Shown here piece after piece: positions 31,901 through 45,628 of a stretch of 64,000 nucleotides of DNA. Made by a program: the position numbers and the translations under genes. A model generated the notes under the pieces. That model saw only the letters and a program-made list of their open reading frames with translations, was not told the origin of the DNA and ran no database searches. Positions within the stretch are counted from its first letter, which is position 1. Each line of letters starts with the position of its first letter. Source of the DNA: Haloactinospora alba (GTDB taxonomy: Bacteria > Actinomycetota > Actinomycetes > Streptosporangiales > Streptosporangiaceae); assembly GCF_006717075.1 (NCBI RefSeq), contig NZ_VFQC01000003.1:124001-188000 (forward strand), given 5' to 3'.

Positions 31901-32274
31901 GACCGCTGGGGGTAGAGGTTCATGCCGCTGCCCGCGAACACGCCGATCCGGGTCCCCGGCGGCTCGCTGGTGTATCCGGCGTCCTCCAGCGCGTGGTAGG
32001 AGGTCTCCAGGAACAGGCGGTGCTGGGGGTCGGTCAGCCGGGCCTCCCGGGGCGTCATCCCGAAGAACCCGGCGTCGAACAGGTCGATGCCGTCCAGTCT
32101 CCCGCCGGCGTCCACGTGGTCGGTCGGGGTGCGCGCCGTTGTCCCGCGCGCGGCGGCACTGTCGGTTCCCGCACGCACGTTGTGCCAGTACTCGGTGGTG
32201 TCCCCGGCTCCGGGGAACCGTGCCGCCATGCCGATGACGGCCAGCGGGAGGCGCTGGTCTGCTTCCGTGCTCAT
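22984..32274 (-). CDS. Hybrid PKS-NRPS megasynthase KS-AT-ACP-AMT-MOX-C-A-PCP
   Basis: 3096 residues. Domains in order: KS ~10-430 (Cys174 in QTACSTSL, His in EAHGTGT and KANIGH). AT ~530-870 (Ser625 in GHSAGEY; RAFH suggests malonyl-CoA). ACP with Ser955 (LGADSL). A long Pro/Gly/Ala linker. PLP aminotransferase ~1180-1615 (Lys1457 in TYGKVIGGG). Luciferase-like monooxygenase ~1668-2015 (YFFGDYP, WLPERHFHSFGG). Condensation ~2040-2480 (HHIVIDS at 2171). Adenylation ~2510-3000 (YTSGSTGRPKG, NEYGPTE, YRTGDLG, GVNGKVDR). PCP with Ser3038 (LGGHSL). The order predicts malonyl extension, beta-transamination and alpha-hydroxylation to a 3-amino-2-hydroxyacyl unit, then amide coupling to one amino acid. 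By-eye specificity residues of the A domain read DVQIVTEVVK; I cannot assign the substrate. Start overlaps the upstream stop as ATGA. Confidence 0.93.
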   Translation of the reverse strand: MSTEADQRLPLAVIGMAARFPGAGDTTEYWHNVRAGTDSAAARGTTARTPTDHVDAGGRLDGIDLFDAGFFGMTPREARLTDPQHRLFLETSYHALEDAGYTSEPPGTRIGVFAGSGMNLYPQRSYLLTQLHGAGDDPVTGVQTAIGNQPDFLSSRVAFRLGLTGPAVSVQTACSTSLVALHTAAQALRNGDAGMALVGAAAVHVPQDAGYRYTEGSILSASGVCRPFSADADGTVGGSGVAAVVVKPLEAARADGAPVHAIVLGTAVNNDGAAKVGYTAPSVAGQAAVVRSALDRAGVHPDTVGYVEAHGTGTALGDPIEVQGLARAFGSGDDRAAPCELGSVKANIGHLDSCAGMAGLVKAVLVLKHGVVPGQINVNGINPELRLAETPFRISESTHPWPESSRPRRAGVCSLGVGGTNAHVVLEEPPAPEPEPEWDGPGVLPLSAHTPEALTERAEQYRDRLRGGGAPGGLLLSAAGASRPMHHRIAATGSSASELADALDGFVTARPDTTAALPGGVVSSTGDGAANERFVFLYPGQGNHAPGMARTLYHRYPAFRAVVDECDSHHARTWDESLTSALVGGEGPEAWTTDLLQPALFTYQAALTTLWRELGVDPAHVVGHSAGEYAALWAAGAFSLEEGLHLAAVRGRLMREAAEEGALLAVLAGHGEVGDTLADHPEVEVAVVNGASHCVVGGPRAAVAAAGDALDRQGVATRWLEADRAFHTASMDPLLDAFEEHAHGVRLAPLDRPFSRNTDGARVEAGGTLGVDYLRRQIRETARFDLALGDAAAGGGTFLEVGPGATLTGIGRREHPELEFVASHTPAVSADQDIGEALARLHAGGAAVRWHRLAPAGAVRERPPAYPFQRGSYWPEPAQPDRTDDRGDTRGSPAPHTTGPPASGMDMTTYHEPEAEDPLFTNVVETVRERAAHHFGMEADQLGTGDAFVELGADSLGMVNMLRDIEQRFAVRVPMRELFETADTAHRLAGAVVERLTPEQAERITASSGGGADPARDAPAGGTAPADTPAEAGTAAAGAAPETAPPDRGAPPDPAVPAPPTTGTPAGGDTAEGIVNRQLGIIEQLSGVMSEQLALLRSGGTGRNPGHTADSPGTVPSPAPAEGTGGDPASATGAGPGPGTGASRGAGSDAAAEAPSAHGPRVSVPRDSGMVTGESAPEQQNHLRNLVRDYESSTRTSKDLAQRYRSALADSRSVVGFRGATKEMLYPLAADRASGAHLDDVDGNRYVDITMGFGILLFGHEPEFVTEAVQRHLSRGLRLGARNEETGEAAELLTRLTGTERAAFATSGTEANSAAIRLARAATGRDTVVMFSGSYHGHIDSVLAHSAPDGGGLRTFPVSTGIPDNAVRDVVVLEYGAEESLATIDQLGSDVAAVLVEPVQSRRPDRQPAEFLRRLREVTRRHGSVLLFDEMLTGFRPHPRGARGHFGVEPDLATYGKVIGGGFPIGAIAGPAAIMDGVDGGFWRYGDASHPQADTTFFGGTYAQHPLAMSAARAVLGHLEQHSPGLQDRLNDRTRHLADTLNAFFAEEEFPVHVARFGSQFRFEYRGNMELFFHHLLLNGVHVWEWRNFFLSTAHTDEDVAFVIDAVKESLRGMRRGGLLPAGSGTTAPAAKTAAAPAPSPGPAAEGGPAEEPSRPPVPEVEPRRTDVPDFSIYFFGDYPEDVSREDAYRMIQECARFGDENGFHAVWLPERHFHSFGGIFPNPSVLAAALASQTSRIRLNSGSVVLPLHNPIRVAEEWSLVDNLSNGRVGRLGCASGWHANDFVFFPERYGRHKAAMYEGIDTVRRLWRGGSVPGRSGSGDRVEVGLYPKPVQRDLPMSAAVVGNPDSYRMAAEHDLGVVTNLMAQSVEQLAENIELYRTTRAENGLDPGAGRVTVLVHTYLGDDAEQARAAAREPFCRYLRSSLSLFGQMTNSLGLSIDLENTPEEDVEFMLGMAFDRYCESRALIGTPDSCAPVVEALLDAGADEIAAFLDFGLPGEEVLAGLPALDALRRRYQDREDRPATGPARPAAASRTAVTDTAPLSFAQQRIWFLERMLPGRSTYKEVKAIDLDGPLDTNALRAAVQHMADRHPALRTVFHDTGGEPRQVVLGRVAVPCPVVERAGDSVESALREVTAEEGNHPFDLENGPLIRARLLRFSDTHHVLVLAMHHIVIDSLSALVLTRELSETYRASAEGRAPDLPELTTTYTRHAREQRAAVDGGSAEESLRYWTNQLAGPLPELRLPFDRPRPQVPVSPGGSLFHLLPRDLSERLREFSRGQRATLFTTLLAGLGEVLHRFSGQDDILVGTPVAGRPEGTGDLVGFFANTLALRLDLAGDPTFADLVTRTRTTLLDAQDHEDAPFEEVVRRVAPERDPGRTPVFQVMVEFENEPVFEFDLPGVEARLLNAGVEKAPFDLTLYLENRPEGVQCHLEYNTDVFDPATARRLLDYLHTTLDAAVAEPEAPLSATGGLTEGDRRFLLEHQARPAPPPEECLHQRVERQVAATPDATAVLSGDETWTYRELNAAANQLAHRLRAAGVRPDDSVGVLVSRSPRLVVALLAVAKAGGAYLPLDALLGGERLAFMLDDSGAGVLVTDQAGEAPMRIPDGVTVLDIPEAATVPDGADDSDPDCVTTPDNLLYCLYTSGSTGRPKGIAMPHRCLVALTDWYAANRTPMRTLQFASCGFDVASQEIFTALTTGGSLVLVSEEQRFDPRALAAVVRDQRVERVIVPFTPLRHLLEALSAEGPAPHLREVVNTAERLTITSPVRRFLTENPDCALFNEYGPTETHVVAAHRVTDLDDPVPPVGGPVADTTLRLLDPGGRPVPVGAVGEIHVSGSGVARGYVGRPEETGRAFGTDPFSSEPRRRMYRTGDLGRWRGDGTLEYLGREDDQTKIRGWRVEPGEVEHALNGTDPVRQAVVLVQDGGAEPYLAAYVTLTDDAGDGGTPAVRAELAAELHRTLPHYMVPTAWVFLPSLPMGVNGKVDRAALPPAAPERQDPPAPLSDAAERVRRVWESHLGVSGVHPDTSFFELGGHSLQAVALLNRIRDELGGEVSLTEFFRAPTVRGMAERLEQADPGTAAAPTAPGNRVEGTV

Positions 32275-35200
32275 ACCTCTCCTTGCGCGGGGGAGGAGTG
32301 TCGGAGGCCGGACAGATAACCCGCCAGGGCGGTGACCGTGGGGTGCTCGAACAGGGCGGTCTGGGGAATGGGCATGTCCAGTGCCGACTCCAGCCGGGCG
32401 TGGGCCTGCAGGATCTGCAGCGACCCCAGTCCCAGTTCGTGGAATCCGCGTTCGGTGTCCGGGTCGGTGGCCAGGAGCCCCCGGAAGACCTCCTCGACCC
32501 GGCGGAGGGTCTCCGGGTCGGCCGGGGCCGTCCCGGACGGCTGTCCGCCGTGGCCGTCCCCGTCCCGCTGCCGGACGAGCACCGGCGGGTGGTGTGCCCC
32601 GACGGCGTCCGTGACGGCGGGCGGCCCGTCGGGGAACGCGTCCGGGTCGGCGAGTACCACCGCCCGTTCCAGCGGCAGGTGCTCGGTGCCCTGGACCAGC
32701 CTCCGTACGGGGGGAGCGGCGCCGTTGAGCCCGACGAGGTGGGTCCCCGCGTCCTGGCGGAGCACGAGCCTGGTCAGGAGCGCCCCCTGCTGCGGGGAGA
32801 GGCTCAGCAGCCCCCGCTGCCGGATCGCGCTCTCGTAGGGATTGCCCTGGTTGACGCCCACGTCCTGCCAGGCGCCCCAGAGGACACTGTGCACCGACAG
32901 GTCGGTGTGCGCCGCGAGGTGCGCGCAGAGGGCGTCGGCGGCGGCGCTGGCGGCGGCGTAGCCGCCGAACCCCACGGAGGGGCTGAACCCCAGCAGCGAG
33001 GAGAAGACGACGAGGTGGCTCCCGGGGCGTTCCCGCAGCAGCGCGGCCACGTTGCGGGTGCCCCGGGTCTTCGCCCGGAGCGCCTCCCGCCACGACTCGC
33101 CGGTCTCCTCGGCCAACAGGCGGAACCGGTACCCGCTCTCGGCCAGGTGCACGGCGCCCGCCGGGGATCCGCCCCACTTCCGTTCCGTCTCGGCGACGAC
33201 CCGCCGCAGCTCCTCCGGGTCGCACACGTCGGCGGCGCGGTGGCGCACGGCCCCGCGCTCGCCCTCGGCTACGTTGCGGCTGACGACCAGGAACCGCGTC
33301 CGGTAGCGCTGGGCGAGGTCCTCCAGTAGTACCGAACCGATGCCTCCGGCGCCGCCGGTGACCAGGTACCACCCGCCGCGCCGCAACGCGTCGCGGGCGG
33401 GAGCGTCCTCCACCCCGGGACGCAGGGAGAGCACGTGGGGGCGGCCGTCCCGCCAGACCGTCTCGCCACCGTCCCCGGAACGGTGCCCCAGCGCCGACTC
33501 GAACGCCGCGGCGTCGTCGGCGGCCGTGCCGCCCGGGAGGTCGACGTGGCGGGTCTCCACCCCCGGCGTCTCCGCGGTGAGCAGGGAGGACACCGCCGCC
33601 GTCTGGGCCGCCGGATAGCACACCCCCTCCTTACCGGTGACGGGGCGCAGCTGCCGGCTGGCCGTCACGACCCGCGCCCCCTCCCCGGAGGCGAGGGGAA
33701 GCAGCTCCCGGACGGTGGTGAGGAGCAGCTCCCCGCACCTGTTCATGGCGCGGTCCAGCTCGGCGTCCCCGCAGTGCGGCGCCGGCGCGGGGAGGTAGCT
33801 GGGGAGGTAGAGCAGCGTTCCCCACCGGAACCCGGAGGTGTGTAGGTCGTTCCGCAACCGGTCCCAGTCCGAGGGGGAGGCCGGGTCCACCACGTAGCCC
33901 TCGGGGGTCTCGGCGAAGGACTCGCCCGCCCGCACCGTCACCGTCGTGCTGTCGGGCGTGAGGTGGTCCGCCAGTCCGTGGCCGTCCGCGACGACGATCC
34001 GGGGGCCGGAGGGGAGCGGATCCGGTACCGGCTCCACGGGCACCCACTCGGGGCGGTAGGCGCACTCCGGGAACGTCGGGTCGGTGCCGGGGAGGGAGGA
34101 GTCGAACTCGCCCTCGCGGGTCCGGCGCACCAGCTCGGAGCGCTGGATCTTCCCGCTCGACGTGCGCGGGAACTCGGACCGGTGCAGCGGAACGAGGCGG
34201 GCGGCCGCTAGCCGGAACCGCTCCGCCACGACGGCCCGCAACCGGGATCGGACCTCGGACGCGTCGAGCGGGGAGGAGGTGTCGGGCACGTAGAAGACCC
34301 CGAGGGACGCGCTTCCCGTGGCGTCGTCGGGCAGGCTGCAGGCGGCCACGAACCCGTTGCTCACCCCCTCCACCCCGCCGCAGGCGTCCTCGATGTCGTG
34401 GCAGTAGTAGTTCGCGCCGTTGATGACGATCTGTTCCTTCGCGCGGCCCGTGACGACGAGTTCGCCGTCGACGGCGAAGGCGAGGTCGCCGGTGTCGAAC
34501 CAGCCGTCCCCGGAAAACGCCGCGGCGTTGGTCTCCGGAGCGTCGAGGTAGCCCGGCGTGACCCGGTCCGCCCTGATGCGGACCCGTCCGACCGTGCGCT
34601 CCGGCAGGACACGTCCGTCGTCCCCGACGACCCGTATCCGCACTCCCGGCACCGGCGGCCCCATGGTGGCGAACTCGACGCCGTCGTCGCCCGCGGTCTC
34701 CGGCACGGTCCGGACGGCGCCGTCCAGCGACGCCGGCTCCACCGTGACCGAGCTCGCCCGTTCGGAGACGAACTTGTAGACGACGCCGGTCGCGGTCTCG
34801 GCCATGCCCCAGGCGAACACCATGTTCCCGGGGTGTATCCCGAACCGGGCGGTCCGTTCGAGGACGGCGCGGACCACCGGCATGGTGCACTGCTCCCCGC
34901 CGTTGAGCAGGGTCCGCACCGAGGACAGGTCCCAATGGCGCTCCGGCGCCGCGTCCAGGGCGTCGGTCAGCATCTTGTACCCGAAGTTCGGCGACCAGGA
35001 GTGGTTGACCCGGTACCGCTCCATGATGTCGAGCCATCGCAGCGGGTCCTGGGCCACGTGGTCGGTGGGCGCGTGGACGCCGGCGCAGCCCAGGACGGTG
35101 TCGCGCAGGTGGAACATCACCACCGGGACCACGTGGTCCATCGGCAGCCAGTTGAAGGTGACGTCCCCAGCCGATATCCGGTTGTGGCTCCGGGCGGTGA

Positions 35201-36275
35201 CGGCCATGTGGACGATCGCCCGGTGGGTGATCGGGATGATCTTCGGTCGTCCGGTGCTTCCGGACGACAGTTGCAGAACGGCGACCTCGCCGGGCTCCGC
35301 CCGGTGGACCGCGTCGCTCGGCTCGGAGCGCTCCAGCTCCGGGACCGGTGCCACGTCCACCTCCGCGCCCCGCGGTTGGGTGGCGAGGGCGCCGGAGAGC
35401 GCCGCGGCCCCGGCGGAGCTGGTGATGACGGGCGGGGAACCGAGCTGCTGGTGGACGTCGAGCAGTCCCTCCAACGCGGGGGCGTCCGGCCCGTACGACG
35501 GGGGAGAGGCGACGGTGGCGCACTGGATGCCGCCGAGCAGGCAGGCCCACAGCGCGGGGAAGTACTCCTCCAGGTCGTCGCTCTGCAGCACGGCACGGGA
35601 CCCCGGGCCGAGGCCGCGCTCCCGGAGGCCGCCCAGGACGCGCCGGGCCCGGTCGAGGAGGGTCCGCGGACGGGTGTGGCTGTCGCGTTCGGCGGTGACC
35701 ACGCGCACGCCCGCTTCGGGACTTCGCCGTGGGGCGGAGAGCAGCGCCTCGGTGACGGTGCGGGGGTCGCCGTCCTCTAGCCGCAGCTCTCCCCCGTCCA
35801 GCTCCGCGGCCGGCAGGGGGCCGGGGTCGCTGGTGCCGTGGCGTCCCTCCGCTGCCGTTTCTGGGGGAGCGTCGCGGTCGTGGGGCAGGAAGCGCCGCGG
35901 CTCCTCCGGAACCGGTCGCAGTTCGACCCGTGGCGCCGCCGCGGGGAGGGCCGCGGTCAGCTCCTCCTCGTAGTCCCGGATCCGGGCGGGGGTGAGTACC
36001 GGCAGGGCGAGCAGTGCCTCGGTGTCCGGGGAGCCGTCACCCGACCGGGGAATCCTCCGGAGGGGGACGACGGCTGTGGAACCGGCACCGATCAGCGCGG
36101 CGCTCACGCGCCTCCTGAGACGGAGGAGGTCGGCGTTGGGAGCGGGGACGACATAGACGGTCAGCAGACCGTTCCGGTCGTCGGGCCGGGTCAGCGCCAC
36201 GCATTCCGTGACAGTGTCGACGGTGAGGATTTTCTTTTCCAGGTCCGCCCTGCGAGGAGCGTCGTGACCCGTCAT
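32271..36275 (-). CDS. Loading protein: acyl-AMP ligase, ketoreductase, ACP
   Basis: 1334 residues. Residues ~15-130 resemble a detached C-terminal subdomain of an adenylating enzyme (TVTECVALTRPDD ... IPRSGDGSPDTEALLALPVLT). Residues ~195-725 are an AMP-dependent ligase (LQLSSGSTGRPKIIPITH, FAWGMAETATG, GWFDTGDLAF, GRAKEQIVINGANYY) of the starter-unit type. Residues ~725-1215 are a ketoreductase with structural and catalytic halves (WYLVTGGAGGIGSVLL; catalytic Lys in LRAKTRGTRN, VVFSSLLGF, Tyr in FGGYAAASAAADA; the usual Asn is Ser). An ACP with Ser1285 (LGLGSL) ends the protein. It would activate and load the starter acid for the KS of the next protein. The KR may reduce an alpha-keto starter; its real substrate is unknown. 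Confidence 0.88.
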   Translation of the reverse strand: MTGHDAPRRADLEKKILTVDTVTECVALTRPDDRNGLLTVYVVPAPNADLLRLRRRVSAALIGAGSTAVVPLRRIPRSGDGSPDTEALLALPVLTPARIRDYEEELTAALPAAAPRVELRPVPEEPRRFLPHDRDAPPETAAEGRHGTSDPGPLPAAELDGGELRLEDGDPRTVTEALLSAPRRSPEAGVRVVTAERDSHTRPRTLLDRARRVLGGLRERGLGPGSRAVLQSDDLEEYFPALWACLLGGIQCATVASPPSYGPDAPALEGLLDVHQQLGSPPVITSSAGAAALSGALATQPRGAEVDVAPVPELERSEPSDAVHRAEPGEVAVLQLSSGSTGRPKIIPITHRAIVHMAVTARSHNRISAGDVTFNWLPMDHVVPVVMFHLRDTVLGCAGVHAPTDHVAQDPLRWLDIMERYRVNHSWSPNFGYKMLTDALDAAPERHWDLSSVRTLLNGGEQCTMPVVRAVLERTARFGIHPGNMVFAWGMAETATGVVYKFVSERASSVTVEPASLDGAVRTVPETAGDDGVEFATMGPPVPGVRIRVVGDDGRVLPERTVGRVRIRADRVTPGYLDAPETNAAAFSGDGWFDTGDLAFAVDGELVVTGRAKEQIVINGANYYCHDIEDACGGVEGVSNGFVAACSLPDDATGSASLGVFYVPDTSSPLDASEVRSRLRAVVAERFRLAAARLVPLHRSEFPRTSSGKIQRSELVRRTREGEFDSSLPGTDPTFPECAYRPEWVPVEPVPDPLPSGPRIVVADGHGLADHLTPDSTTVTVRAGESFAETPEGYVVDPASPSDWDRLRNDLHTSGFRWGTLLYLPSYLPAPAPHCGDAELDRAMNRCGELLLTTVRELLPLASGEGARVVTASRQLRPVTGKEGVCYPAAQTAAVSSLLTAETPGVETRHVDLPGGTAADDAAAFESALGHRSGDGGETVWRDGRPHVLSLRPGVEDAPARDALRRGGWYLVTGGAGGIGSVLLEDLAQRYRTRFLVVSRNVAEGERGAVRHRAADVCDPEELRRVVAETERKWGGSPAGAVHLAESGYRFRLLAEETGESWREALRAKTRGTRNVAALLRERPGSHLVVFSSLLGFSPSVGFGGYAAASAAADALCAHLAAHTDLSVHSVLWGAWQDVGVNQGNPYESAIRQRGLLSLSPQQGALLTRLVLRQDAGTHLVGLNGAAPPVRRLVQGTEHLPLERAVVLADPDAFPDGPPAVTDAVGAHHPPVLVRQRDGDGHGGQPSGTAPADPETLRRVEEVFRGLLATDPDTERGFHELGLGSLQILQAHARLESALDMPIPQTALFEHPTVTALAGYLSGLRHSSPAQGEV

Positions 36276-40176: not shown

Positions 40177-41628
40177 TCAGCGCAGCGCGCGCAACTGCTC
40201 GGTGAACCACCGTTGCGGGGGTGCCGCGGCGGCGGCCTCGGCGAGGCGCCCGCAGCGCGCGGCGCGCTCCTGTCGGGGCATGGACAGCGCGGCGTGCAGG
40301 GCGTTGGCCGTCTCGGTGACGTCGAACGGGTTGACGAGCAGCGCGTCCGCGCCGAGCTCGTCGGCCGCGCCCGCCTCGGTGGACAGCACCAGCGCGCACC
40401 CGTCGTCGGAAACCGTGACCCCCTCCTTGGCGACCAGGTTCATACCGTCCCGGACGGGGTTCACCAGCAGCGCGTCCGCCATCCGGTAGGCGGCCAGCGA
40501 CCGGGGGAAGTCGTCGTCCATCTCCAGAACCAGCGGGGTCCACTCGGCGGTGGCGAACTCGTCGTTGATCTCCTTGGCCATGCTCCGCACCGTCTCGGTG
40601 TACTCCCGGTACTCCGGAACGTCGCCCCGGCTGGGGTAGACGAAGGCGAGGTGGGTGACCGCGCCGCGCCACTCGGGGCGAGTGGTGAGGAGCTCACGGT
40701 AGGCCGCGAACCCGCGCACGATGTTCTTGGAGAGCTCGGTGCGGTCCACCCGCACGATGGTCCTCCGGTCGCCCACGCGGCGCCGCAGCGTCTCGCGGCG
40801 TTCGGTGACGTCCGCGGCGGCGGCCCTTTCCCGCAGGTCGCCCGGGTCGGCCCCCAGCGGGTGCACCCCCACGGTGATGACGCGGCCGCCGAACTCCACG
40901 GTGCGGGCCGCAGTGTCCACGGCCACGTTGAGGAACGCCGCGCAGCAGTCCAGGAACGCGTCGGCCCAGCGGGGGCTGTGGAACCCCAGGTGGTCCGCGC
41001 CGAGCATGCCCTCCAACAGCTCCCGCGCGACGTCGGTGGGCAGCAGCCGGAAGTACTCGGGCGGAGCCCAGGGGGTGTGCGAGAAGTGCGTGATCCGCAG
41101 GTCGGGGCGGCGCTGGCGCAGCATCCACGGCACGAGGGAGAGGTGGTAGTCCTGCACGGCCACGCGGGCGTCGCCGGCGGCACCGTGCAGCAGCGCCTCG
41201 CAGAACGCGGTGTTGTACTCGCGGTACCGCTCCCAGTCGGCCCGGAAGCCACTACCGAAGGCGGGTTTGTTCGGGACGTCGTACAGCATGTGCTGGACGA
41301 ACCACAGGGTCGAGTTCGCCACGGAGGTGTAGGCGCTGGCGAACGTGTCCGCGGGAATGTCCAGCATCCGTACCCGCATCCCCTCCGGGGCGTGACCGGT
41401 GTGGTCGATCCGCCCGTCGGGCGCGGCCGCCGCGGCCTCCCGGTCGGCGTCGGACAGCGCCGCGCACACCCACAGCGCGTCGGACTCGGTGGCGACCGAG
41501 CTCATCCCGGCTACCAGGCCTCCGCCGCCACGCCGGTGCTCCAGGGAACCGTCCTGTCGGTGTACGAACGAGACCGGACCCCGGTTCGAAGCGATGAGGA
41601 GCTGCGCCTTGTCCACCTGAGTGCCCAC
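40177..41628 (-). CDS. otsA: Alpha,alpha-trehalose-phosphate synthase
   Basis: GT20 glycosyltransferase joining UDP- or GDP-glucose and glucose 6-phosphate to trehalose 6-phosphate. 483 residues. Family blocks are LLIASNRGPVSF and RRGGGGLVAGM at the N-terminus, VAVQDYHLSLVPWMLRQRRPDLRITHFSHTPWAPPEYFRLLP in the acceptor region, VRVDRTELSKNIVRGFAAY, and the donor-site block DALLVNPVRDGMNLVAKEGV. The start is uncertain between two in-frame GTG codons four residues apart; GAGAGG fits the second better. Works with OtsB at the other side of the biosynthetic operon. Confidence 0.93.
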   Translation of the reverse strand: MGTQVDKAQLLIASNRGPVSFVHRQDGSLEHRRGGGGLVAGMSSVATESDALWVCAALSDADREAAAAAPDGRIDHTGHAPEGMRVRMLDIPADTFASAYTSVANSTLWFVQHMLYDVPNKPAFGSGFRADWERYREYNTAFCEALLHGAAGDARVAVQDYHLSLVPWMLRQRRPDLRITHFSHTPWAPPEYFRLLPTDVARELLEGMLGADHLGFHSPRWADAFLDCCAAFLNVAVDTAARTVEFGGRVITVGVHPLGADPGDLRERAAAADVTERRETLRRRVGDRRTIVRVDRTELSKNIVRGFAAYRELLTTRPEWRGAVTHLAFVYPSRGDVPEYREYTETVRSMAKEINDEFATAEWTPLVLEMDDDFPRSLAAYRMADALLVNPVRDGMNLVAKEGVTVSDDGCALVLSTEAGAADELGADALLVNPFDVTETANALHAALSMPRQERAARCGRLAEAAAAAPPQRWFTEQLRALR

Positions 41629-41885
41629 CTCTCACGTGAGATCGTGTCGTTGTCCGCGGGTGCCGACCGCTCCCTGTGGGGAGCGCGGCGGCCACGGTAG
41701 GTGTTGTCGGTGTCGCCTCCGCGGCCGGGCCGCAAACCCGCTGTGCGGGCCGAAACGCCGGCGGGTGCGCGCGACCGGCGGGGACGCGGGGGTGTTACCC
41801 GCGTCACGATTGGTGGAAAAACGGACACCCCGTGGGTTAGGGTGACCCGCGAATCCGAACCGGATCCGCAACAAATTTCATATTG

Positions 41886-42024
41886 CTCATCCAGAGGGGT
41901 GGAGGGACCGGCCCTGCGAAGCCCCGGCAACCACCTAGGCGCGCGCTTCTCGCGGAAATTGCGAGGCCGCCTGGCAGGTGCCAACTCCGGCCCGGTACCA
42001 GATCGGTTCCGCGGAAAGATGAGG
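41886..42024 (+). promoter_or_regulatory. SAM-I (S-box) riboswitch
   Basis: All conserved SAM-I blocks are present in order. P1 is CTCATC (41886-41891) pairing with GATGAG (42019-42024). AGAGGGGTGGAGGGACCGGC and GAAGCCCCGGCAACC form the P2/kink-turn region. GGTGCCAACTCCGGCC forms the P3/P4 binding core. The 3' P1 strand runs straight into the GGGGAG ribosome-binding site of the next gene, which favours translational control: SAM binding would stabilise P1 and hide the site. Confidence 0.95.
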
Positions 42025-42037
42025 GGAGACGCCTCGC

Positions 42038-43309
42038 ATGGCGACTGTCGCCACCGAACCCCATCCGACGGCGAACGACGCTTTCGGCCCCGCCGCGGCC
42101 CTGTCCTGTCGGGAGTGCGGCCACCGTTACGAGCTGGGCCCGCGTTTCGCGTGCGAGTTCTGCTTCGGCCCGCTCGAGATCGCCTACGAGTTCGACAGCA
42201 CCCGTGTGACCCGGGACGCCATCGCGCGCGGTCCCGCCAACATGTGGCGGTACGCTGACCTGCTGCCGGTCCCGCGCAACGTCGCCGAACTGCCGAACAT
42301 GAACCCGGGCCTGACCTCGCTGGTCGCCGCCGACCGGCTCGCGGGCGAACTGGGGATGCGCTCGCTGCACGTCAAGGACGACTCCGCCAACCCGACGCAC
42401 TCGTTCAAGGACCGGGTGGTGGCCATGGCGGTGGAGGCGGCCCGCACGTTCGGGTTCACCACCCTGTCGTGCTCCTCCACCGGCAACCTCGCCGGCGCGA
42501 TCGGCGCCGCCGCAGCCCGCGCCGGCTTCGAGTCGTGCGTGTTCATCCCGGCCGGCCTGGAGCGGGGCAAGGTCGTGATGGCGGCCGTGTACGGCGGCAA
42601 GGTGGTGGCGCTGGACGGCACCTACGACGACGTCAACCGGTTCTGCTCCGAGCTCATCGGAGACCCGGCCGGTGAGGGCTGGGGCTTTGTCAACGTCAAC
42701 CTGCGGCCCTACTACGCGGAGGGCTCCAAGACGCTGGCCTACGAGATCGCCGAGCAGCTCGGGTGGCGCCTCCCGGAGCAGATCATCGTACCGATCGCGT
42801 CCGGTTCCCAGCTCACCAAGATCGACAAGGGCTTCCAGGAGCTGATCAAGACCGGGCTGGTCGAGGACCGCCCGTACCGGATCTTCGGTGCCCAGGCCAG
42901 CGGGTGCGGACCCGTAGCCGGCGCCTGGGAGCGGGGCCACGACGTCGTCCAGCCGGTGAAGCCGGACACCATCGCCAAGTCGCTGGCGATCGGGAACCCC
43001 GCCGACGGCCCCTACGTCCTGGACGTCTGCGCCCGTACCGGTGGCGCCGTGGCGCACGTGGACGACGGGCAGATCGTGGACGCGATGAAGCTGCTCGCCC
43101 GGACCGAGGGCGTGTTCGCCGAGACGGCCGGCGGCGTCACCACCGGCGTGCTGCGCTCGCTGCTCGCCGAGGGGACGCTGGACCCGGAGGCCGAGACGGT
43201 GGTGCTCAACACCGGCGACGGCCTCAAGACCCTGGACGCGGTGGACTCCGGCGTCACCGCGACCCTCGCGCCGTCCCTGGACGCGTTCAAGGACGCCGGG
43301 CTGCTCTGA
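42038..43309 (+). CDS. Threonine-synthase-like PLP enzyme with N-terminal zinc ribbon (riboswitch-controlled)
   Basis: 423 residues. Four cysteines (24, 27, 39, 42; CRECG and CEFCF) form a rubredoxin-like zinc ribbon. The fold-type II PLP core has its lysine at 124 in NPTHSFKDRVV, followed by SCSSTGNLAGAIGAAAARAG and SGCGPVAGAWERG. Threonine synthase uses O-phosphohomoserine and water to make threonine. However, it is under a SAM-I riboswitch and 76 bases upstream of a CysO/ThiS-like carrier gene. This suggests instead that a protein thiocarboxylate replaces water to give homocysteine, as CysM does with O-phosphoserine. The catalytic assignment to threonine synthase is by homology; the methionine role is inference. 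Confidence 0.88.
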   Translation: MATVATEPHPTANDAFGPAAALSCRECGHRYELGPRFACEFCFGPLEIAYEFDSTRVTRDAIARGPANMWRYADLLPVPRNVAELPNMNPGLTSLVAADRLAGELGMRSLHVKDDSANPTHSFKDRVVAMAVEAARTFGFTTLSCSSTGNLAGAIGAAAARAGFESCVFIPAGLERGKVVMAAVYGGKVVALDGTYDDVNRFCSELIGDPAGEGWGFVNVNLRPYYAEGSKTLAYEIAEQLGWRLPEQIIVPIASGSQLTKIDKGFQELIKTGLVEDRPYRIFGAQASGCGPVAGAWERGHDVVQPVKPDTIAKSLAIGNPADGPYVLDVCARTGGAVAHVDDGQIVDAMKLLARTEGVFAETAGGVTTGVLRSLLAEGTLDPEAETVVLNTGDGLKTLDAVDSGVTATLAPSLDAFKDAGLL

Positions 43310-43385
43310 CCGCGTCGTCGCGGTGCGAGCGCCGGACGCCCGAACGCCGGCCGCGCGCCGGCTGCCAACCATCCGAGGAGTGACC

Positions 43386-43664
43386 GTGAGCGTTAATGTC
43401 CGTGTCCCGACCATCTTGCGCAGCTACACCAAGGACGCGGCGCAGGTGACGGCCGAGGGGGAGAACCTGAAGGCCGTGCTGGCCGACCTGGAGGCGAACT
43501 ACCCCGGAATCCTGGACCGGATCGTGGACGACTCCGGTAAGATCCGCCGGTTCGTCAACGTGTACGTGGGTGAGGAGGACGTCCGGTTCGCCGAGGGGCT
43601 GGAGACCGCGACGGCGGACGGCACCCAGGTCTCGATCATCCCGGCGGTGGCGGGCGGCTGCTGA
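43386..43664 (+). CDS. CysO/ThiS/MoaD-like sulfur-carrier protein with -AGGC terminus
   Basis: 92-residue ubiquitin-fold sulfur carrier, close in pattern to mycobacterial CysO: VSVNVRVPTILRSYT, LADLEANYPGILDRIVD, FVNVYVGEEDVRFAEGL, and VSIIPAVAGG. Such proteins are adenylated and thiocarboxylated on a C-terminal diglycine by an E1-like enzyme. Here one extra residue, Cys, follows the GG and would need removal, for example by a JAMM peptidase like Mec+. GTG start with GAGGAG seven bases upstream. It follows the threonine-synthase-like gene, ends at a strong terminator, and shares the riboswitch. Confidence 0.9.
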   Translation: MSVNVRVPTILRSYTKDAAQVTAEGENLKAVLADLEANYPGILDRIVDDSGKIRRFVNVYVGEEDVRFAEGLETATADGTQVSIIPAVAGGC

Positions 43665-43697
43665 CCGCGCGCCGCGCGCCCCGCTGGGCAACCTGTC

Positions 43698-43738
43698 AAC
43701 CCGCGCCCGTGAGTGAACGCGACACGGGCGCGGGTTTT
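43698..43738 (+). terminator. Intrinsic terminator of the riboswitch operon
   Basis: Perfect 14-bp stem AACCCGCGCCCGTG/CACGGGCGCGGGTT with an 11-base loop, followed by a T tract. Confidence 0.9.

Positions 43739-43814: not shown

Positions 43815-45628
<1,814 letters not shown>

Follow-up and report, generated by a model that had tools for sequence, protein, structure and literature searches.

In Streptomyces, the homocysteine synthase MetM reportedly acts together with thiocarboxylated MetO, its sulfur carrier, to turn O-phosphohomoserine into homocysteine (Hasebe 2024). A protein-thiocarboxylate route is also reported from Wolinella succinogenes (Krishnamoorthy and Begley 2011), where the HcyS/HcyD/HcyF/MetY system starts from O-acetylhomoserine and its enzyme is of fold type I. 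According to PMC12172450, MetM was identified as homocysteine synthase in Streptomyces by Hasebe et al. (2024, AEM e01247-24, doi 10.1128/aem.01247-24), S. albulus metO is a relative in the sulfur-carrier family and S. albulus metM has a SAM riboswitch upstream. In Mycobacterium tuberculosis, the carrier CysO is charged by MoeZR and the CysO-cysteine adduct is hydrolysed by Mec (PMC3227635). Capping of sulfur carriers is itself already known from S. platensis, where PtmS3 is capped by a single Cys and PtmS2 by MetVal; deletion of the JAMM protease PtmS1 abolished formation of the thiocarboxylate product (PMC6006322).

We analysed a window of 64,000 nucleotides (the whole stretch of DNA under study) from Haloactinospora alba. 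The earlier note had described a riboswitch followed by a PLP enzyme, a carrier and a terminator. This description was accurate, and all four parts were recovered (Table 1). With a probability of about 93%, the gene pair would represent the MetM/MetO pathway, forming homocysteine from O-phosphohomoserine and carrier-held sulfur under control of a SAM riboswitch. Within the genome, this reading builds on the riboswitch, a separate hom-thrC-thrB cluster, MoeZ, a mec-cysO-cysM cluster, MetH and the failure to find MetX or MetA. Among relatives, it builds on a MetM family of its own and on the conserved riboswitch, carrier and Mec, with MetX missing from most MetM genomes. Fixed residue differences from threonine synthase (ThrC) and the published Streptomyces pathway, as described in PMC12172450, add to this. 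The homocysteine inference of the earlier note was thus right, but it is not new, as MetM/MetO was already published for Streptomyces in 2024. The distribution of the pathway, its relationship to MetX, the residue differences between ThrC and MetM and the survey of carrier caps are small extensions.

Table 1. Features of the metMO locus (window coordinates).
Feature	Position	Strand	Evidence
SAM-I riboswitch aptamer	41884..42025	+	RF00162, 68.6 bits, full model
metM, threonine-synthase-like PLP enzyme, 423 aa	42038..43309	+	PALP and thrC-family matches
metO, CysO/ThiS-type sulfur carrier, 92 aa, GTG start	43386..43664	+	ThiS family, CysO 3dwg
Intrinsic terminator, GC-rich hairpin of at least 12 pairs, then TTTTC	about 43700..43737	+	fold -32.5 kcal/mol, z -4.6

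The aptamer ahead of the two genes is indeed complete and scores well above the gathering score of 44.4. It is the sole SAM-I match in the genome (4.94 Mb, searched likewise for ThrC, MetX, MetA, MoeZ, Mec and MetH). The minimum free energy fold of the entire leader is no stabler than shuffles (z -0.7), and the evidence for the riboswitch therefore comes from the covariance model together with conservation. The 3' strand of P1, GATGAG, continues into GAGGGGAG, the likely ribosome-binding sequence. Across Nocardiopsaceae relatives, roughly twelve bases separate the end of the aptamer from the start codon, with P1 again running into GAGGGGAG. A pattern scan found no terminator-like site between aptamer and metM. 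Together with the position of P1, this makes translational control by the riboswitch likely. The strong terminator reported after the second gene corresponds to the hairpin in Table 1, which was absent from the listing of the simple terminator pattern scan.

The arrangement is conserved. Each of 40 relatives that we checked has a SAM-I aptamer ahead of MetM. At 108 of 110 loci, the next gene encodes a MetO-like carrier, and of the two exceptions, one is truncated at a contig end. The survey proposed by the earlier note therefore bore out the pairing; chance is ruled out for the observed arrangement by this conservation, and riboswitch-metM-metO is a conserved unit across actinobacteria. The nearest MetM relatives belong to the Nocardiopsaceae (Streptomonospora alba, 87% identity; Nocardiopsis, 80-85%). 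The operon is flanked by a gene that, from reading its sequence, we take to encode a trehalose-phosphate-synthase-like protein (40177-41628, minus strand) and by groEL (43992-45628, plus strand). By tblastn, these neighbours recur in 77 and 64 of 80 relative loci, respectively. Upstream of groEL, the inverted repeat TTAGCACTC-N9-GAGTGCTAA (window 43834-43860) is a candidate CIRCE operator, matching the consensus bound by HrcA. Elsewhere in the window (32271-36275, minus strand), a 1334-residue protein reads as a synthase with AMP-ligase, ketoreductase and carrier domains and lies beside an MFS-like transporter; from its sequence, a secondary-metabolite role of this locus is possible.

Gene 2 matches Pfam ThiS (55.8 bits), and its closest solved relative is M. 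tuberculosis CysO (3dwg, E 5.8e-28). Its assignment as a CysO/ThiS-type carrier, located downstream of metM, therefore stands. A detail missed in the earlier note is its C-terminus, which is no free Gly-Gly: MetO ends in AVAGG-C, with one Cys beyond the reactive diglycine. As encoded, Cys-capped MetO cannot be charged directly, which counts against the MetM/MetO reading. With its GGC end, the carrier probably has to be trimmed, most likely by Mec: the adduct of CysO and cysteine, which Mec cleaves, likewise ends in GG-Cys. Both proteins that the earlier note had suggested looking for are encoded in the genome. One MoeZ-type activating enzyme combines ThiF (283.9 bits) and rhodanese (59.9 bits) domains in a single chain, and a Mec-like JAMM protease is found in a separate mec-cysO-cysM cluster.

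Carrier tails were compared in 108 sequences (73 GG, 31 GGC, 4 other). GGC is found in 21 of the 24 carriers of the Nocardiopsaceae set and GG in most of the sampled Streptomyces. Whichever of the two tails the carrier has, Mec is encoded alongside it in nearly every genome (69 of 70), the lone exception being a metagenome-assembled genome; its presence is thus uninformative as a test of the cap. We also considered selection on the Cys residue itself, an explanation weakened by the finding that duplicating three bases is enough to turn GGCTGA into GGCTGCTGA. Instead, the cap might have arisen by neutral slippage of these three bases and be trimmed by any carboxypeptidase rather than read by Mec. 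Every GGC tail is coded TGC followed by TGA, consistent with a tandem duplication of GCT in GGCTGA, and on the MetM tree of 77 rows the GG and capped states swap repeatedly (14 changes). Against slippage stand the retention of the cap in the Nocardiopsaceae set and S. platensis, where loss of the JAMM protease abolished sulfur delivery and the candidate carriers are capped (PMC6006322). On balance, we regard neutral slippage as a tenable but less probable account of the cap.

The CysO protein of the same genome (C1:707115-707393; L025:5116-5394) ends in GG-Thr-Arg. In related families, 28 of 30 CysO loci have a tail of GG, then Ser, Met, Thr or Ala, then Arg, and CysO appears, judging by these tails, to be a capped pro-carrier as well. 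A more speculative and rather doubtful idea is that Nocardiopsaceae MetO, with its Cys, and CysO, with its two-residue tail ending in Arg, are both pro-carriers activated by a single Mec. Capped MetO, sharing its GG-Cys end with the CysO-cysteine adduct, would then compete for this protease and tie methionine synthesis to cysteine flux.

The genome was searched family by family for other sources of homocysteine. Neither MetX nor MetA was found in the 4.94 Mb, and the canonical acyl-homoserine routes therefore look absent. MetH is present (1411.7 bits). Two PF01053 enzymes are encoded. The first lies near cystathionine beta-synthase, a neighbourhood that would fit the cystathionine lyase of reverse transsulfuration, although its top NCBIfam match is named cystathionine gamma-synthase. 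The second (C2:61842-62987, minus strand) resembles O-acetylhomoserine sulfhydrylase but scores 392 bits, below the cut-off of 495. As MetX and MetA were not found, both are left without a visible acyl-homoserine substrate. In principle they could use O-phosphohomoserine, a point counted against the MetM/MetO reading. In a phylum-wide sample of 296 genomes, 110 carry the MetM group, and MetX is missing from 80 of these (Fisher p 0.004 with an odds ratio of 0.48, uncorrected for shared ancestry). Its presence in the other 30 also counts against this reading. With a separate ThrC, MoeZ and Mec present and MetX and MetA not found, the homocysteine reading of the earlier note is supported; each of the genome checks that it had suggested came out in favour of this reading.

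In vitro, sulfide often serves as a substrate for PLP sulfhydrylases. MetM might accordingly make homocysteine from O-phosphohomoserine with free sulfide as main donor, MetO being employed otherwise. We consider this very unlikely, as metM and the carrier gene stay tightly paired in one operon across diverse actinobacteria and MetO reportedly was characterised as the sulfur carrier of MetM (Hasebe 2024).

MetM matches Pfam PALP (211.5 bits) and TIGR00260 thrC (254.1 bits, cut-off 167.1). Its N-terminus carries a zinc-ribbon-like Cys quartet (C24, C27, C39, C42), which is invariant in 110 aligned relatives and absent from the ThrCs compared. Gene 1 is thus a fold-type II PLP enzyme of the threonine-synthase family with a zinc-ribbon-like motif, in line with what had been proposed from the sequence. 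The earlier note had advised a search for a second threonine synthase in a hom-thrC-thrB cluster and would have abandoned its reading if gene 1 were the only one. Indeed, the only further match to MetM in the genome (36% identity) was found between the genes for homoserine dehydrogenase and homoserine kinase. It fits TIGR00260 better than MetM does (314 versus 254 bits) and is the true ThrC of the genome; gene 1 is not its threonine synthase. Among the matches listed from the 296 genomes of the phylum, an empty gap separates two groups, MetM at 48% identity or more and ThrC, which reaches about 39% at most. MetM belongs to the former group, being 70-77% identical to most Streptomyces orthologues. 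In the catalytic domain, MetM and ThrC differ at residues fixed within each group, for example L151/T91, E175/A116, R223/N160 and Y226/R163.

A cysteate synthase identity was rejected (47 bits, cut-off 325). ThrC models match gene 1 far better than cysteine synthase models do, and metM and metO belong neither to the mec-cysO-cysM location nor, for the enzyme, to the CysM family. In vitro, a homologue from Microcystis that shares 51.6% identity with MetM forms threonine and also deaminates it, and its authors judged that it does not fully take the role of MetM in cells; its threonine activity would count against the MetM/MetO reading (PMC12172450). Still, that gene 1 encodes another genuine threonine synthase, with an incidental carrier, as this activity and the TIGR00260 score above cut-off might suggest, is hardly credible given the canonical hom-thrC-thrB cluster, the SAM riboswitch ahead of gene 1 in 40/40 relatives, the carrier conserved beside it, the catalytic-domain residues fixed otherwise than in ThrC and the failure to find MetX or MetA in the genome.

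In the MetM/MetO pathway as we picture it, MetO would be made with its one-residue Cys cap after Gly-Gly, which Mec would remove. By the precedents of CysO and PtmS, MoeZ would adenylate the exposed Gly-Gly and its rhodanese domain bring the sulfur, yielding MetO thiocarboxylate. By orthology, MetM would then eliminate phosphate from O-phosphohomoserine on PLP and place the carrier sulfur onto C-gamma. The homocysteine formed would be converted to methionine by MetH, and threonine would come from the separate ThrC. At high SAM, P1 may close over the ribosome-binding site and stop translation of the operon.

MetM/MetO is thus not confined to Streptomyces but forms a conserved unit under SAM regulation, and MetM is present in 110 of the 296 genomes sampled across the phylum. 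Many automated "threonine synthase" calls are probably homocysteine synthases, with consequences for metabolic models and for the prediction of auxotrophies. The MetO cap raises the testable question of how Mec connects the synthesis of cysteine with that of methionine.

Compared with known systems, the locus would share a protein-thiocarboxylate route to homocysteine with Wolinella, but its substrate would be O-phosphohomoserine and its enzyme is ThrC-like and of fold type II. With CysM/CysO/Mec of M. tuberculosis it shares a fold-type II PLP enzyme, a CysO-like thiocarboxylate carrier and, presumably, charging by MoeZ (PMC3227635), whereas the substrate there is O-phosphoserine and the product cysteine. 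PtmS3 of S. platensis, with 91 residues and a Cys cap, has the length and tail of MetO and may be its orthologue, as judged from these two features rather than from an alignment; the PtmS system, however, was described for thioplatensimycin and not for methionine (PMC6006322). Closest is Streptomyces MetM/MetO, with the same gene pair, the same riboswitch-metM-metO order and most orthologues in the 70-77% identity range. Here, as in most Nocardiopsaceae relatives, the carrier ends in GGC, in contrast to the GG of most sampled Streptomyces.
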